Part shown: positions 593 to 35,345 of the stretch, piece after piece
How the letters are laid out: each line of letters starts with the position of its first letter
Numbering within the stretch: position 1 is the first letter of the stretch
Virus record (IMG/VR): IMGVR_UViG_3300034072_000758
Coordinates: 1-64,000 of that record
DNA from: a virus
Strand: one strand, 5' to 3'
DNA length: 64,000 nucleotides
Notes under the pieces: generated by a model
What the model was told of the DNA's origin: nothing
Database searches by the model: none
What the model saw: only the letters and a program-made list of their open reading frames with translations
Translations under genes and position numbers: made by a program

Positions 593-1203
593 TGTCAAAT
601 ATTACGGTTCACCAAAATCAATTCAAAAAGCTATTTGACAGATCGTTCGTTATTGACGATCTAACAGATGGTGGCGAATACGCGAATTATGAGATCGCTA
701 AGAAAGGTGCTCACGGGTCTTTGCTGTCGGCATTTAGTAAGAAGCATGAAAATCTTCATTTGTGCGACATTTGTATTTACACACCAAATGTTCCTCTAGC
801 GGATCATATCGCATCCATAGTGATGCATATCCGCGCCGGGGAAGAAGAATCGGTTCTTCGAATTGGTAATTTCTTCAACATAACGTCTCTTGAGCCGTGG
901 ATGTATAAATTCGAGGCCCCGGAGCATTTAAATCGTGTTGCGGCTCGACTGAATGGTCAAGAAATCGTGACGGTACGTGATATTCAACCTTCGTTTGTTA
1001 CGCGATTGATTGCCGATATTAAAGAAAACAATCCACCCCGCCTCATGAAGAAGCGCGCCCGATTGAAAAACAAAGCACGTTCAATTGTCAAAAAAGAAAT
1101 TCTCGGTCTGATTTTCAAAGATAATTCTCCCGGTCTATTGTATAGGCATAATAACAAACCGAAAACTATTTCGCTTCATATCGACCGTATGGAAATCGCA
1201 TGA
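592..1203 (+). CDS. Unknown phage protein
   Basis: This is a 203-residue soluble protein with a strongly basic C-terminal third (residues about 145-175, rich in K and R), which could contact nucleic acid. No domain is recognised. It lies between an unknown gene and peptide deformylase with one- to four-base overlaps on both sides, suggesting a three-gene cotranscript. Confidence 0.65.
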   Translation: MSNITVHQNQFKKLFDRSFVIDDLTDGGEYANYEIAKKGAHGSLLSAFSKKHENLHLCDICIYTPNVPLADHIASIVMHIRAGEEESVLRIGNFFNITSLEPWMYKFEAPEHLNRVAARLNGQEIVTVRDIQPSFVTRLIADIKENNPPRLMKKRARLKNKARSIVKKEILGLIFKDNSPGLLYRHNNKPKTISLHIDRMEIA

Positions 1204-1742
1204 TCCTACCTATTCTGTCTCACCCCAATCCAATCTTGGATTCGTATTCGGTTTATGTGCCGAAGAATGAGCCTGTGGGTGAACTAATCGACAACATGTT
1301 CGAGACCATGTACGCAGCCAATGGTATAGGTTTGGCTGCTGTTCAAGTCGGCGTCCGTTGGCGCATTATCGTGATCGATCTACAAGATGGCTCCGACCCC
1401 CTTCATTTGATCAACCCGGAGTTCGACAAGATTTCGGGCATTCTGTCAGAAGGGATTGTTGAAGGCTGTTTGTCGGTCCCAGACGAATTGTTACAAGTTC
1501 CTCGCTTCACTTGGTCCGAGATCAAATATTTCGACCGATATTGGAAGCCTCGGACTTTGCGGGCTGAGGGCATCCTTCAAATTTGCCTATCACATGAGAT
1601 CGATCATTTAAACGGAAAGACGTTGGCTTCTCGTAAAACGTGGTACGAGCGCGAAGCTTCGCGCCGCTGGGAAGAAACACAAGAGACGTATCCATATCAA
1701 AGCTATGTCGATCTGATGAAATCATCCATACCGCATGACTAA
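1200..1742 (+). CDS. def: Peptide deformylase
   Basis: It removes the N-formyl group from nascent polypeptides in the cytoplasm, the first step of N-terminal maturation. All three family motifs are present: GIGLAAVQ (residues 42-49), EGCLSVP with metal-ligand Cys90, and HEIDH (132-136) with two metal-ligand His and catalytic Glu133. At 180 residues it is near full bacterial length and has a short charged C-terminal tail. The ATG overlaps the previous stop (ATGA). Deformylases are known in marine phages, where they are thought to sustain host protein synthesis. Here it accompanies IF-1, TrpRS, SmpB, ClpS and ClpP in the same window. The 3' end overlaps the convergent next gene by about 20 bases. 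Confidence 0.95.
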   Translation: MILPILSHPNPILDSYSVYVPKNEPVGELIDNMFETMYAANGIGLAAVQVGVRWRIIVIDLQDGSDPLHLINPEFDKISGILSEGIVEGCLSVPDELLQVPRFTWSEIKYFDRYWKPRTLRAEGILQICLSHEIDHLNGKTLASRKTWYEREASRRWEETQETYPYQSYVDLMKSSIPHD

Positions 1743-22922: not shown

Positions 22923-23225
22923 ATGACCGACACGTCCGTAATAGAAAAAACTGATACCAAAGTGAAAATCACCCGTCCGAAAATGTGGACCGTGGTATTT
23001 CACAATGATGACCATACCCCAATGCAATTTGTGGTACAGGTTCTTACTCAGTTATTCGGACTTAATAATGATGATGCGAATAACATCATGATGAAAATTC
23101 ACAACGAAGGTAAGGCCAACGTTGGGATTTATTCTAAAGATGTAGCGGAAACCAAGTCATTTGAAGTGAATGAAGTCGCCAAGACTTATGGCTTCCCGCT
23201 CAAGACGACTATTGATCAGCTTTGA
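22923..23225 (+). CDS. clpS: ClpS, Clp protease adaptor
   Basis: ClpS captures proteins with bulky N-terminal residues (N-degrons) and delivers them to ClpAP. The 100-residue protein has the signature FHNDDHTPM (residues 26-34), which forms the N-degron pocket. Also present are VVQVLTQLFG, MMKIHNEGKA with the conserved His, and an AETKSFEVNEVAKTYGFPL ending. The N-terminal ~18 residues form the usual flexible extension needed to engage ClpA. It has its own promoter between smpB and a convergent gene. Together with phage ClpP it could redirect host proteolysis. Confidence 0.95.
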   Translation: MTDTSVIEKTDTKVKITRPKMWTVVFHNDDHTPMQFVVQVLTQLFGLNNDDANNIMMKIHNEGKANVGIYSKDVAETKSFEVNEVAKTYGFPLKTTIDQL

Positions 23226-28920: not shown

Positions 28921-29511
28921 ATGAACCTAGTTCCTATGGTGCTGGAACAAACCGCCACGGGTGAACGTTCCTACGACATTTACAGCTTGATGTTGAAGCA
29001 CCGTCAAGTGTTTGTCGGCGGACCAGTCAACGATACGATGGCGCAAACCATCGTCGCTCAACTTCTCTATTTGGAAAATGAAAATCCCAAGAAAGAGATC
29101 ACCATGTACGTCAACAGCCCCGGTGGTGTCGTGACGGCTGGTATGAGCATCATTGATACCATGAATTTCATCAAACCAGACGTTCATGTTATCGTTATGG
29201 GGCAAGCCTGTTCTATGGGTGCCATGATCACGACCTTTGGTGCCAAAGGTCATCGTCATATTCTCCCAAACGCCCGTATGATGTTTCACCAACCTTCGGG
29301 GGGTGCTCAGGGCATGGCTTCGGACATCGAAATCCAAGCCCGTGAGATTAGCTATTTGAAAAAGAAGCTGAATCAAATGGTAGCAGACAATACCGGCCAA
29401 CCGCTTGAATATGTGGAGCGTATCATGGATCGTGATACTTTCATGAGCGCTGAGGAAGCGGTCGCGTTTGGGGCTGTCGATCACATTATTCAGTCGAGAA
29501 ATCAAATATAG
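28921..29511 (+). CDS. clpP: ClpP, ATP-dependent Clp protease proteolytic subunit
   Basis: ClpP forms the 14-subunit chamber that degrades substrates fed by ClpA or ClpX. The catalytic triad is intact: Ser98 in GQACSMGA (most bacteria have GQAASMGA), His123 in MFHQPSGG, Asp172 in [12 protein letters not shown]. Also conserved are the [13 protein letters not shown] oxyanion segment and the C-terminal FGAVDHI. 196 residues, standard mature length with a short N-terminus, so no propeptide is needed. A phage ClpA or ClpX is not visible, so it would have to pair with host ATPases or mix into host ClpP rings. ClpS and SmpB are encoded 6 kb upstream. Confidence 0.96.
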
Positions 29512-30037: not shown

Positions 30038-30358
30038 ATGACCAAAGCTCTCGCATATTTTATCACCAATGACGGGATCATTACCCACGTAACGGGTGAT
30101 ATTGACACGGCCTTGCTTAACGAATGGTTCACCCATTATAAAATCGCGGGCGGTTTCATGAAATTTCACGATAAGGATGCTTCGGATATTCTCGAAGAGA
30201 TCGCTCGTTTATATGGTAATTTTGAAATTTCTTATCGCTCTACCGATACTCTTAAGACATTTTCAAGTCTCAGTGGTAAAAACACCGTTGATTTTTTTAG
30301 AGCCGTAACAACAGGCTGTTCGAAAAATCAATCGGCTAAACTTCGTCTGTACATTTAA
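30038..30358 (+). CDS. Unknown protein, probably leaderless
   Basis: 106 residues. No ribosome-binding site; the promoter -10 is 6 nt from the ATG. Mixed alpha/beta N-terminal half (TKALAYFITNDGIITHVTG), polar C-terminal half with several Ser, Thr and Lys. It converges on the IF-1 gene with a 4-base overlap. Function unknown. Confidence 0.58.
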   Translation: MTKALAYFITNDGIITHVTGDIDTALLNEWFTHYKIAGGFMKFHDKDASDILEEIARLYGNFEISYRSTDTLKTFSSLSGKNTVDFFRAVTTGCSKNQSAKLRLYI

Positions 30359-30567
30359 CGGTGGCGATAAACAATCCGCCCCTTGGTAAAATCGTGGATA
30401 CTCATTTCGATGTCTACCACATCACCCTGAGATACCCGAATATTATTTCGTTTTATTTTTCCACTTAGATGGCACATGACTTCGTGGCCATTTTCAAGCT
30501 TTACGCGGAACAGGCTAGGTAATAGCTCTGAGACCGTCCCTTTTATTTTTATGATGTCCTTTTCCAA
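30355..30567 (-). CDS. infA: Translation initiation factor IF-1
   Basis: IF-1 sits in the ribosomal A site during initiation and works with IF-2 and IF-3. The 70-residue protein aligns with bacterial IF-1 (about 72 residues) across its length: KIKGTVSELLPSLFRVKLEN, GHEVMCHLSGKIKRNNIRV, GDVVDIEMS, and DFTKGRIVYRH. It is a complete OB-fold with the basic surface kept. The start is a TTG at 30567, with AGAGGAAC seven bases upstream. No ATG exists before residue 31. A late-type element lies 25 bp further up. I know of no well-characterised phage IF-1, which makes this gene unusual. Confidence 0.93.
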   Translation of the reverse strand: MEKDIIKIKGTVSELLPSLFRVKLENGHEVMCHLSGKIKRNNIRVSQGDVVDIEMSIHDFTKGRIVYRHR

Positions 30568-30592
30568 AAAGTTCCTCTGATTGGTTTACGAG

Positions 30593-30601
30593 ATATTTAT
30601 T
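30593..30601 (-). promoter_or_regulatory. Late promoter AATAAATAT for infA
   Basis: Minus-strand late-type element 25 nt before the TTG start, leaving a short leader that contains AGAGGA. Confidence 0.5.
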
Positions 30602-30617
30602 TTATCTCAGTTTTAAA

Positions 30618-30645
30618 TTGACTTTGACGCGAAGTTATCGCTATG
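30618..30645 (+). promoter_or_regulatory. Possible promoter for rIIA
   Basis: TTGACT, 16-bp spacer, GCTATG. An overlapping TTGACG starts at 30624. About 38 nt to the rIIA ATG. Confidence 0.4.
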
Positions 30646-30683
30646 GTCATGTTAACCATGTCACCTAGCGTTAGAGTAAGCGT

Positions 30684-32633
30684 ATGATCGTTGAGTCCAA
30701 AGTCCGCGAGATCGAAACATCCGACAATGTAAAGACCAAAGGTTTTAGCATTAAGGCAAGCGGTAAGGCATTCAAGTTGCTGTCGTCCGGTCTGTATAAG
30801 GACAAGATCAAAGCAATTATCCGCGAGATTTCGTGTAACGCTTATGACTCTCATAAGGCGGCGGGTAATCCAAATCCGTTCGATGTTCACCTTCCCAATC
30901 AATTCGATCCAACTTTCACGGTGAGAGACTATGGTACTGGCTTGTCCGATGAAGACATGCTGAACCTGTTCACCACATACTTTGAAAGCACCAAAACGAA
31001 CACCAACGATCAAATTGGTGCGTTCGGCCTTGGATCGAAATCTCCGTTCTCGTACACTACCCAATTTACAGCAACCAGCTTCTTCCCGATCAATGAAACA
31101 ACCCGGATGAAGTCGGTCTACCAAGTGTTCCTGAACAGCTACGATGAACCGTCGATTTCTTTGCTTCACCAAGAAGAAACAGATGAACCGTCTGGTTTAG
31201 AAATCAGCTTGTCCATCGAGCCACGAGACTTCAATACGTTCCAGCGCTCGGCGGTTGAGGTCTATCGATATTTCGACCTGAAACCCAATGTTACGCCGAC
31301 ACTAACATACCCGGAGTCACAAGTGTTCTTGGAAGGTGAGAAATATCGTGTTCTCAAGTATGGTAACGCTGTGGCAATTATGGGTGTTGTCGCGTATCCC
31401 ATAGACACCAGCATTATCAGCCACAAAGCCGCCAGATGGGCCGTAGAGCTTAAGTTTGATATTGGTGATGTAGACATCACCGCTGGTCGTGAAGAACTCT
31501 CATACGACCCCCAGACCATTGCTGCCGTTAACAAGGCTCTGGATGGTGTTGTGAATGACTATTACGCACAGGCATCGACCGAGATCAAGAAATGTAAAAC
31601 GATGAAGGAGGCGTATGAGTTTTATGGCAAATACTCAGAATACATGTCTGACCCTCTGCTGTTCCGTGGTCATAAAATTTCGACCGATGTGGTGAAATAT
31701 TGGAACGATACTACCGATAATGTTTCGGTCCAGAGAGTCGAGAACACTGGTCCGATCAAGGACTTTAATAAAAGTTTTGACATTGCCACAACGGACGCCA
31801 TCATTTTGGATGACGGGACGCCATGTCGCACAACCAAGCTTCGATATTGGAAGAACAGCCGCCGTGGCCGCGCGTGGGTATTTTCTCGCATCCCAGAAGT
31901 TCTTAAGAAGTCACTCGAAGGCTGGGAAATTATCAATCTCGCCGATCTTCCAAAACCACCCCCTCGTCCGCGCGCCAATTATTCATACGTTCGTCAAAAG
32001 CCAATTATGTCGGTTTTGAATGTTGCTACTGGCGCGCGCGAAGAAGAAACCGTCCGTCCTCTGGTCGAAGGGGAAGTATACATCCGTCACGGAACCGCCA
32101 ACTATTTGTATGGCGATCATATGATTTCGATGAATGATAGTGGCGTAAATTTCCTCGCGCTATGTAAGCTCTTGGGTTTGGATAAACTCTACTTTGTCAC
32201 CACTACCACCAACAAGAAGCATCTGGTCAACGCTGTTGACTTGAAGACATATGTTTCCAACCGAATGAATCATCCAGAAGTCCTCAGCATTCTTCGCTAT
32301 AATGAGATCGAAGATTCATCAACCATATCGGTTTTGAGGTCTCTGGTCACCATTATGGAAGAAAAGAACCCGGACCATGTTGTCCTCCCGGTCATCAAGC
32401 GAAAAGTTGAAGTTTACAGCATGGTCAACTATGACCTGAGACGCAAGTTCAAGCTTTATCCGCCGCATACCTATAATCGCCAGAAGAGTGAATTTGAACT
32501 CCAATGGGACGAATTGGTCATGCAATATCCGCTTCTCACCTCAGCATTGAACGGTAGAGAAAAACACACCTACATCACCCTCGTGGACGAACTCAATTCG
32601 TTGCGTGAAGCCCAGCAGAAAGTATCCGCGTAA
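30684..32633 (+). CDS. rIIA: rIIA-like protector protein (GHKL ATPase)
   Basis: 649 residues. The N-terminal third is a GHKL/Hsp90-type ATPase: AIIREISCNAYDSHKAAG (N box), VRDYGTGLSDEDM (G1), and IGAFGLGSKSPFSYT (G2/lid). T4 rIIA, a membrane-associated protein, guards infected cells against the lambda Rex exclusion system and affects lysis inhibition. The C-terminal two thirds are less conserved. It is joined to rIIB by TAATG as in T4. Confidence 0.9.
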   Translation: MIVESKVREIETSDNVKTKGFSIKASGKAFKLLSSGLYKDKIKAIIREISCNAYDSHKAAGNPNPFDVHLPNQFDPTFTVRDYGTGLSDEDMLNLFTTYFESTKTNTNDQIGAFGLGSKSPFSYTTQFTATSFFPINETTRMKSVYQVFLNSYDEPSISLLHQEETDEPSGLEISLSIEPRDFNTFQRSAVEVYRYFDLKPNVTPTLTYPESQVFLEGEKYRVLKYGNAVAIMGVVAYPIDTSIISHKAARWAVELKFDIGDVDITAGREELSYDPQTIAAVNKALDGVVNDYYAQASTEIKKCKTMKEAYEFYGKYSEYMSDPLLFRGHKISTDVVKYWNDTTDNVSVQRVENTGPIKDFNKSFDIATTDAIILDDGTPCRTTKLRYWKNSRRGRAWVFSRIPEVLKKSLEGWEIINLADLPKPPPRPRANYSYVRQKPIMSVLNVATGAREEETVRPLVEGEVYIRHGTANYLYGDHMISMNDSGVNFLALCKLLGLDKLYFVTTTTNKKHLVNAVDLKTYVSNRMNHPEVLSILRYNEIEDSSTISVLRSLVTIMEEKNPDHVVLPVIKRKVEVYSMVNYDLRRKFKLYPPHTYNRQKSEFELQWDELVMQYPLLTSALNGREKHTYITLVDELNSLREAQQKVSA

Positions 32634-33835
32634 TGTCCATCCCATTTTCCTATATCCACAACAAGGGCGTGGCCCTGTCGTTCATGTCTCGTTCGGGTAA
32701 AGTCATCACCTATGTTGATGCCGAATTTTACGAACCCGGTTTGGAACTCGTTCGGGAAATATTAAAGACACCGAAAGACACCCCCGAATACGACGCTCTG
32801 CGCGAAAAGCTAGAAAATTTGAACAAACTCGCCGAAAAAGTGATCAAGTCGATGAACGGCCACATCGAAATTCGCGGCGATCAAGTTCTATATGACGGCG
32901 AGCCGGTTCATAATACCATCGTGGATCGCATCATCGAAGGTGCTAAGGAAGATATGGATATGACATCTTATATCAACTTCCTCGAAAACCTCATGCTGAA
33001 CCCGTCGAACCAGACTGTTAACGAGGTCTATGATTTCATGGAGGCTAACTCTATGGGGATCACTGACGATGGTTATCTGTTGGCTTACAAGCGCGTTCGC
33101 GGGGATTTTAAAGACATCTACACCGGCAAGATGGATAACAGCCCCGGTACAGTCGTGCGGATGCCGCGCAACCGTGTGAACGATGATCGAACCCAAACCT
33201 GTTCACATGGCCTCCACGCCTGTTCCATGAATTATCTTCCGCATTACGGGACTTCGCCGGAAAACACGGTCGTAATTGTGAAGATTCACCCCAAGGACGT
33301 GGTGAGCATTCCTATTGACTACAAGAACGCTAAGATGCGTTGCTGTGAGTATCTGGTTTTGGCCGAATACACCGACCCGGATAAAGAAGACATTCTCGCC
33401 ACCCGCTTCATTTGGAGCGAAGAAGACCTCGAAGACGAGTTCGGCTCCGAAGACGATCATGATAATTTCGATAACGACGATTTCGATAACGATGATTGGT
33501 ATAAAAACCACGACGAACAGCCTTCTACCGAATATGAGAAAAATGATGAAGGTGTATACGACTGGAAGGGCGAGGGTGAGCCGAACTACCCCGCGTCCGA
33601 TCCATACGAAGTCGCCAAGTTCTATTCAACCACCGCTAATAGCGAAGTCCCAGAAGATGCCACCGACATCGACACAGAGCGCGCCAAGACTTATGGTGAT
33701 GTGCGCGAAGATGTTTTGCGCCAAGCGACTGGTCAAACGTTCGTTCCCAGCGCCTCGCTATTCTATAATAACGGACGTATTCAGGTTTCTCCGACACCTA
33801 AATATGATTCCAATAATGATGACAAGGAAGTATAA
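32633..33835 (+). CDS. rIIB: rIIB-like protector protein
   Basis: 400 residues. The conserved block YDFMEANSMGITDDGYLLAY followed by KRVRGDFKDIYTG and CSHGLHACSMNYLPHYG is diagnostic of rIIB. The first ~100 residues include a small YXDxEFYEPG-like DNA/protein-binding segment. After residue 260 the protein has an acidic DNDDFDNDDW repeat and a disordered tail absent from T4 rIIB. Works with rIIA. Overlaps the glutaredoxin start by one base. Confidence 0.88.
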   Translation: MSIPFSYIHNKGVALSFMSRSGKVITYVDAEFYEPGLELVREILKTPKDTPEYDALREKLENLNKLAEKVIKSMNGHIEIRGDQVLYDGEPVHNTIVDRIIEGAKEDMDMTSYINFLENLMLNPSNQTVNEVYDFMEANSMGITDDGYLLAYKRVRGDFKDIYTGKMDNSPGTVVRMPRNRVNDDRTQTCSHGLHACSMNYLPHYGTSPENTVVIVKIHPKDVVSIPIDYKNAKMRCCEYLVLAEYTDPDKEDILATRFIWSEEDLEDEFGSEDDHDNFDNDDFDNDDWYKNHDEQPSTEYEKNDEGVYDWKGEGEPNYPASDPYEVAKFYSTTANSEVPEDATDIDTERAKTYGDVREDVLRQATGQTFVPSASLFYNNGRIQVSPTPKYDSNNDDKEV

Positions 33836-34146
33836 TGAATATCGTAATTCATACGAAAACAGGTTGCCCGTACTGCGACAAGGCTAAGGAATTTCTTACC
33901 CAAAAGGGCATCAAGTACGACGCTATTCTTCATGACGATCTGTCCGACCGACAAGCGATGTATGATTCTTTTGGTTTGGAAGGGAACAAAAGAACTGTTC
34001 CTCAGATCGTTATCGACGGCATCCGTATCGGAGGCTATAACGAACTGGTATCGATGTCTGCGTTCCAAAACGATGACGCCGAACCCGGTTCGGATGGATG
34101 CTCCGAAGACGGTTTCTGCGCCATCAATTTCAGTGACGATTTCTAA
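33835..34146 (+). CDS. Glutaredoxin
   Basis: 103 residues. The redox site CPYC (11-14), the cis-Pro loop TVPQIVIDG, and IGGYNELV identify a classical dithiol glutaredoxin, which reduces ribonucleotide reductase for dNTP synthesis. A C-terminal extension after about residue 80 carries two further Cys six residues apart (GCSEDGFC) and ends in DDF. Such a tail is not part of the glutaredoxin fold and could be a relay. It overlaps the convergent CCA-adding gene by 4 bases. Confidence 0.9.
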   Translation: MNIVIHTKTGCPYCDKAKEFLTQKGIKYDAILHDDLSDRQAMYDSFGLEGNKRTVPQIVIDGIRIGGYNELVSMSAFQNDDAEPGSDGCSEDGFCAINFSDDF

Positions 34147-35285
34147 GCGAATTTCAACAAATCGTCTTTAGTTGCCTTAAAGTCGCTGTCGATCCAGATG
34201 GATTTCAGCGACTTTATTTTTGCCCCCATTTCGGGGCCGGGTTTGTATTTCCCGGTAGCCAGCAGATCATTCCCGTTGACCGGGAAATTCGGCACTTGAA
34301 AATCCGCGTAAGCAATATTGTCTCGGTGATAGATCAGAAATGCCTTTACGGCTTCCCTGCTGTAACCCCAAGCCAACATTTCTTTGACGAACTCTTCGCC
34401 GTACTTTCGATGTCCTTGCGATTGACTAATCAGCTTTTCCAAATCTTCGATCAGCTTGGCATCGTCTCGGCTCAGTTTCCATTCAGTAGGCAGACGGCGA
34501 GCCGACAAACGCCCGACAACCATAATCAGAACAGTGAATGGGTCGTTAGTCAGTTTATTGGCATGGGTGGCATGGGTTGGATGATTGAAATCCGTTCCGA
34601 TAGCCTTATCTACTCCCAATGTTTCCATCAGCGTCAGAACTTCATCGGCACGGTCCAGCATGACGATCTTGGACATTTCCTGCCAGATACGCTCGCGCGA
34701 AATCTTGCTCAAATTCGGAGCCAGAGTTCGGATGGCATTGATCGCATCCGAAGGATATTCGATCTTGCCGCCGAAACGACCATAGAAGCGGAACCATCGC
34801 AGGATGCGCAGATAGTCTTCGTCCAACCGCTCATAAGCGTTGCCGACGAAAACACATCGCCCAGCTTTCAGGTCCGACAGACCGTTGAACGGATCGATCA
34901 GTTCGCCTTCAAATGTCATAGACATCGCATTGAACGTCAGGTCACGGCGCGACAGGTCTTCGATCCAGTCACGAGTAAAAGAAACGTCAGCATGACGACC
35001 ATCGTGATTTTGCTCTGTGCGCAGGGAAGTGATCTCGTAGATTTCACCATCCAGAAGCACGCTGATGGTCCCGTGATCAATACCAGTCGGAATAGAATGA
35101 TACCCGTACTTCGTATAGATGCTGATCTGTTCTTGCGGATTTGCGTCCGTACAGAAATCGGTATCCTTCGGCTTGATACCTAATTGGTAATCACGAACAC
35201 ACCCGCCGACGAAACGAATATCAAAACCTTCCGCAACAAAATTATTTCTCAGTTTGATCAACGAAGGCTTAATAAAATCTTTCAT
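34143..35285 (-). CDS. cca: CCA-adding enzyme / tRNA nucleotidyltransferase
   Basis: It adds or repairs the 3' CCA of tRNA. 380 residues from the ATG at 35285, which has AAAAGGAGA ahead. A longer frame would run through the promoter. Class II nucleotidyltransferase motifs: FVGGCVRD (25-32), KPKDTDFC with the metal Asp41 and Asp43, RRDLTFNAM, and ERLDEDYLRILRWFRF for nucleotide recognition. The head and neck domains are intact. The C-terminal tail is shorter than in bacterial PcnB, which favours CCA addition over poly(A) synthesis, though that is not certain. It pairs conceptually with the Thg1-like enzyme. Confidence 0.92.
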   Translation of the reverse strand: MKDFIKPSLIKLRNNFVAEGFDIRFVGGCVRDYQLGIKPKDTDFCTDANPQEQISIYTKYGYHSIPTGIDHGTISVLLDGEIYEITSLRTEQNHDGRHADVSFTRDWIEDLSRRDLTFNAMSMTFEGELIDPFNGLSDLKAGRCVFVGNAYERLDEDYLRILRWFRFYGRFGGKIEYPSDAINAIRTLAPNLSKISRERIWQEMSKIVMLDRADEVLTLMETLGVDKAIGTDFNHPTHATHANKLTNDPFTVLIMVVGRLSARRLPTEWKLSRDDAKLIEDLEKLISQSQGHRKYGEEFVKEMLAWGYSREAVKAFLIYHRDNIAYADFQVPNFPVNGNDLLATGKYKPGPEMGAKIKSLKSIWIDSDFKATKDDLLKFA

Positions 35286-35317
35286 ATACGGGTCTCCTTT
35301 TAATCGATTTAAATTGA

Positions 35318-35345
35318 ATTGTATCACAGGTATTGTTATTGTCAA
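35318..35345 (-). promoter_or_regulatory. Early promoter for cca
   Basis: TTGACA, 16-bp spacer, TACAAT on the minus strand, about 33 nt before the ATG at 35285. Confidence 0.77.

Follow-up and report, generated by a model that had tools for sequence, protein, structure and literature searches.

A bacterial-type translation initiation factor IF-1 carried by a huge tailed phage and its probable action at the host 30S A site

Initiation factor IF-1 is commonly regarded as part of the core gene set of cells, and an IF-1-like reading frame in viral DNA raises the questions of whether its product is a genuine IF-1, whether the gene belongs to the virus and what it would do during infection. The stretch analyzed here (the window) comprises the first 64,000 nucleotides of the IMG/VR virus record IMGVR_UViG_3300034072_000758, and the gene in question is defined by two features:

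30355-30567, minus strand: infA, translation initiation factor IF-1, 70 residues, TTG start codon
30573-30578, minus strand: AGAGGA, a Shine–Dalgarno (SD)-like site 5 nt upstream of the TTG

The frame, strand, length, start codon and AGAGGA site were all found in the sequence as the original prediction had described them. Specifically, the TTG is the sole candidate start (ATG, GTG or TTG) from the preceding in-frame stop to the IF-1 core. With respect to family identity, the NCBIfam infA equivalog model TIGR00008 matches the product essentially full length, over profile positions 3-69 of 69, with a score of 85.3 bits (cut-off 61.15), and the Pfam eIF-1a family PF01176 scores 73 bits (E 1.6e-20; cut-off 30.2), this being its single match in the 516,805-bp record. 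The doubt that the product might represent only a generic S1/OB fold is answered by these scores, which lie well above the curated cut-offs, and by the sub-threshold score of the RsgA N-terminal OB domain (22 versus a cut-off of 27 bits). RsgA itself was rejected on the same score and because the 70 residues contain no further (GTPase) domain, and archaeal/eukaryotic (e)IF1A was rejected with TIGR00523 at 22.3 bits against a cut-off of 102.9. Taken together, the profile matches confirm the frame as a genuine bacterial-type IF-1. Among PHROG families, the product matches phrog_30201 (E 7.4e-22), which is listed as of unknown function and can be relabeled as IF-1-like.

In terms of expression signals, the AUU start of infC is the comparison case for start-codon autoregulation. 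An equivalent role for the TTG start of the phage gene was considered and set aside, nothing special about this codon being apparent: non-ATG starts recur among the IF-1 genes compared (13 of 63 distinct viral genes and 12 of 79 distinct bacterial genes), and IF3 does not discriminate among AUG, GUG and UUG (PMC4611024). A promoter scan gave no excess over shuffled sequences and, on the strand of the gene, no site close to its start, and an Rfam scan around the gene returned no match.

Whether the gene belongs to the phage can be judged from its surroundings. The immediate neighborhood is as follows:

30568-30683: 116 bp separating the divergent IF-1 and ATPase genes, in which neither an RNA family nor, on the IF-1 strand, a sigma-70-like site was found
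30684-32633, plus strand: HSP90-like/sacsin-like ATPase, divergent from IF-1, recognized by weak, sub-cut-off domain matches
32633-33835, plus strand: 400-residue protein of unassigned function downstream of the ATPase

Homologues of both the ATPase and the 400-residue protein accompany IF-1, in the same relative orientation to it, in two further phage contigs, L043 (578 kb) and L100 (149 kb). In these contigs a class-3 lipase gene, whose end reaches or overlaps the start of IF-1, intervenes between IF-1 and the ATPase; the lipase homologue of the studied phage is located elsewhere, at record position 442521. The shared divergent arrangement marks IF-1 as a resident phage gene, and its retention shows long residence in a phage lineage. 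The record as a whole contains a portal protein (phrog_213, E 2.3e-95) and a tail sheath (phrog_10581, E 8.6e-244), together with tail fibers, a primase-like protein, DNA ligase and PhoH. On the strength of the portal and sheath matches we assign it to a huge phage whose tail is contractile, and the predicted IF-1 is thus indeed phage encoded.

In a tree of 72 columns, in which many forks are poorly resolved, the studied IF-1 groups with 26 viral rows and Sinorhizobium phage Phosso, with an SH-aLRT value of 86 (usual threshold 95); Lak phages, LR756511 and other viral IF-1 groups are placed elsewhere. These data also bear on whether the gene could be a recent host acquisition, a contaminant or an artefact of chimeric assembly. 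Precedents of this kind do exist in infA-bearing "phage" records that are in fact bacterial contigs, such as Acinetobacter phage MD-2021a with its leuB, leuD and truA. Nonetheless, we regard this explanation as extremely improbable for the present gene, which is flanked by phage genes, shares its divergent ATPase arrangement with two other phage contigs, groups (weakly) with viral IF-1s and matched no bacterial IF-1 at more than 57% identity. Contamination in particular was rejected on account of the phage hallmarks in the record and the synteny with L043 and L100.

A single-sequence search of IMG/VR with the phage IF-1 found no close relative, and selection was for this reason gauged on other viral IF-1 genes. 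Eight close pairs of these gave dN/dS values of 0.05-0.16, which are consistent with a functional product in those viruses.

We next consider the protein itself. An AlphaFold model, built from 69 window and locus sequences in an alignment that took in bacterial IF-1s, has a mean pLDDT of 90.4 and forms a single five-stranded OB barrel (strands 5-15, 20-24, 29-34, 50-56 and 62-68) with a short helix (36-40) between strands 3 and 4 and no added domains. In a Foldseek search of the PDB the first 14 matches are all bacterial IF-1, among them the IF1 chain of the E. coli 30S complex 9h9h (TM 0.92) and that of the T. thermophilus 30S–IF1 crystal structure 1hr0, and a sequence search for relatives of solved structure likewise returned bacterial IF-1 exclusively. 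The fold prediction draws heavily on an unambiguous family alignment, and the model adds little beyond the sequence match.

The residues through which IF1 engages the ribosome bear on function. Structural work places K39, R41, M42 and R46 of IF1 against the 530 loop and A1492/A1493, the β1–β2 loop in the minor groove of h44, and H35, Y60, R64 and R66 facing S12 (PMC10913371). The phage protein is identical at K39, R46, H35 and R66, has K at position 64 as in E. coli, and keeps R70 and R72; R41K and K42R are conservative changes at contact sites, and Y60H is a changed contact site. Four of its substitutions (P59I, Y60H, L62F and R41K) fall at positions where all 72 bacterial IF-1s examined agree, and its β1–β2 loop is one residue shorter, a deletion shared only with contig L058 among the sequences compared. 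These substitutions and the loop deletion could weaken or alter function. Given the combination of kept and changed contacts, we expect the phage protein to bind the A site, possibly with altered kinetics.

Activities as an RNA chaperone and a transcription antiterminator have also been ascribed to IF1. A protein that works mainly away from the 30S A site, in one of these capacities or as a decoy slowing host initiation, would be compatible with the RNA-binding OB fold of IF1 and with the contact residues that differ. We consider such a role very unlikely, as the ribosome-contact residues are largely kept, contrary to what drift toward a non-ribosomal function would produce, and as the phage co-encodes a set of initiation-related genes.

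This gene set forms part of a sizeable translation repertoire. About 58 tRNA genes were detected in the record by ARAGORN, and E. coli queries matched ThrRS, SerRS, LysRS-like, PheS-like, peptide deformylase (PDF), RF1-like, S21 (E 5e-18), ClpA and ClpS proteins; a family search added ClpP, a CCA-adding enzyme and a ClpX-like ATPase. Two of the translation-related genes lie in the window:

1200-1742, plus strand: PDF, 47% identical to E. coli def (3.9e-31)
34143-35345, minus strand: CCA-adding tRNA nucleotidyltransferase (poly(A) polymerase head family; PF01743, E 1.4e-29), near IF-1

Three tRNAs in the record carry a CAT anticodon, and one of these (L020:4671-4748; record 424671-424748, plus strand) is initiator-like, with 55 identities to E. 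coli metY (initiator) versus 42 to metU (elongator), a mismatch at 1:72 and an anticodon stem with three G-C pairs. Judged by these homologies, IF-1 is one among several initiation-related genes of the phage; IF2 and IF3 were searched for in the record and not found. Two further observations concern this repertoire. A tRNA with an amber-reading CUA anticodon is present (L004:17291-17364; record 117291-117364, plus strand); general reassignment of TAG was nonetheless rejected, since TAG terminates 40 of the 368 phage ORFs over 150 residues and few ORFs are TAG-split. The Clp proteins make up a near-complete protease set of ClpP, ClpS, ClpA-like and ClpX-like genes (window 28921-29511 and 22923-23225; record 362089-364362 and 501248-502495).

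The original prediction had further proposed that the phage factor shifts initiation toward leaderless or weak-SD late mRNAs, an idea that finds no support in the sequence. An SD-like motif of at least 4 bases is found before 45% of first-ATG starts, against 22% in shuffled sequences. With a crude choice of start, which inflates absolute values, the proportion is 51% overall, reaching 76% in the 300-350 kb bin, where the portal and sheath genes are located. With enrichment peaking around the structural genes, the late genes do not look SD-poor. In a published review, leaderless initiation is AUG dependent and modulated by IF2 and IF3 rather than IF1 (PMC4611024). Overall, a leaderless or weak-SD bias is conceivable, though nothing in these data speaks for it.

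A broader form of specialization, in which the altered loop and C-terminal barrel residues favor phage over host mRNAs during start-site selection or subunit joining, deserves separate consideration. It would account for the occurrence of Y60H, P59I, L62F and R41K at otherwise conserved sites and for the shortened β1–β2 loop, with this loop and Y60 both situated at the 30S/S12 interface, and would suit a phage with its own S21 and initiator-like tRNA. Set against this are the ordinary SD usage, which is strongest near the structural genes and leaves no evident weak-SD class in need of help, the retention of most contact residues and the lack of a co-encoded IF2 or IF3. We therefore view specialization as possible, though rather unlikely.

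A feature of the record that touches on the other end of translation is an RF1-like gene (L013:13079-13762; record 293079-293762, plus strand) with PPT in the PxT position and GGQ present. Codon 36 of the gene is an in-frame TGA; in more distant relatives from huge phages, this position is mostly occupied by an aromatic or hydrophobic residue. In each of the 80 nearest viral homologues (L199-L278, L293-L372) a TGA falls on precisely the same codon and is the sole internal stop, and a degenerate DNA pattern recovered at least 120 TGA versus 1 TGG from viral stretches among the matches listed. The TGA usually follows GGC or GGT and precedes A, most such genes end in TAA, and TGA terminates 111 of the 368 phage ORFs over 150 residues. 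Whereas RF2 uses a +1 frameshift, the reading frame of the phage gene is the same after the TGA. This pattern looks like conserved programmed UGA readthrough, probably as Trp, that gates the phage release factor. Our searches of the open-access literature gave no report of a release factor of this type, which does not prove that none exists, and it is likely to be more novel than the phage IF-1; IF-1 was found in 6 of 17 records with a TGA-containing release factor. One could envision a partial initiation replacement set (a retuned IF-1 with altered h44/S12 contacts, S21 and the initiator-like tRNA) acting together with the UGA-gated release factor to convert host ribosomes to a phage-preferring state, a scheme that we consider unlikely.

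The explanation that we favor, and think probable, is that the phage protein is a working bacterial-type IF-1, held long term as a phage gene and acting at the host 30S A site. According to this model, IF-1 would be produced during infection and would occupy the A site as host IF-1 does, engaging the 530 loop, h44 and S12 with A1492/A1493 flipped out. Its partners would be the phage S21, initiator-like tRNA, PDF and tRNA set, plus the IF2 and IF3 of the host; IF1 and IF3 jointly control fidelity at 50S docking (PMC4611024). The phage factor could thereby keep the rate and fidelity of initiation high, or retune them slightly, during the shutdown of host expression, and the simplest benefit would be that initiation on phage mRNAs stays supplied and accurate as host expression falls.

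IF1 is an established phage target, given that the T7 kinase phosphorylates host IF1, IF2 and IF3, as cited in PMC6375957. The original prediction knew of no well-studied phage IF-1, yet huge phages carrying IF1 and IF3 were reported in 2020 (Al-Shayeb et al., PMC7162821), and Lak phages and Phosso have the gene. A tblastn search of INPHARED located IF-1 in 15 Lak phage genomes, in LR756511 and in Phosso, where it is annotated, as well as a version extended at the N terminus in Bacteroides phage DAC19 and relatives. The DAC19 "hypothetical protein" QIG63495 (L028:627-932) consists of an IF-1-like domain and an extension of about 30 residues. In IMG/VR, a profile scan found at least 485 stretches encoding an IF-1 relative, part of which may be host flanks (e.g., the isolate-genome contigs L063, L103 and L106). 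Carriage of IF-1 by a phage is thus not novel, and the present gene is a further example of a type common in viral sequence collections. Counts of phage infA genes call for caution on account of contaminated "phage" records: CAKLQH020000005 in INPHARED has infA with the chromosomal genes leuB, leuD and truA, and contamination is also suspected in CAKLQF020000005 and possibly in OR844994 and other OR84xxxx records. That IF-1 is so widespread in phages, apparently over long periods, suggests that phages commonly take over ribosome initiation, a strategy open to testing by standard E. coli assays on a small soluble protein. To this the studied IF-1 contributes two sequence departures at the 30S interface that can be tested, along with an initiator-like tRNA encoded by the same phage.

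Among known systems, the IF1 proteins of huge phages (Al-Shayeb 2020; Lak MK250015-29; LR756511) are likewise single-domain proteins, from genomes of about 540-600 kb, and in the huge phages of PMC7162821 IF1 is accompanied by many translation genes, as in the studied phage. The Lak and LR756511 proteins are just 46-51% identical to the one studied here, and LR756511 also encodes IF3, which our phage lacks. Phosso (PV764938, XYS97333), a cultured 469-kb phage, has an annotated IF-1 that also starts with TTG and is 49% identical, and resembles the studied phage in having distant homologues of PhoH, ClpA and PDF nearby; it too encodes IF3, unlike the studied phage, and its immediate IF-1 neighbors differ. 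IF-1 lies near ClpA-like and PhoH-like genes, as in Phosso, in L050, L051, L055, L073, L080, L096, L104, L105 and L109, with PDF also nearby in L050 and L073, which suggests a second conserved IF-1 neighborhood. Bacterial IF-1s (C. difficile 6c00, E. coli 1ah9/9fco, T. thermophilus 1hr0) have the same full-length OB fold at about 50% identity, and their basic 30S-contact face is mostly retained in the phage protein, which differs from them in its shorter β1–β2 loop, the R41K, P59I, Y60H and L62F substitutions, its TTG start and its residence in a phage genome, outside a ribosomal-protein or other chromosomal context.
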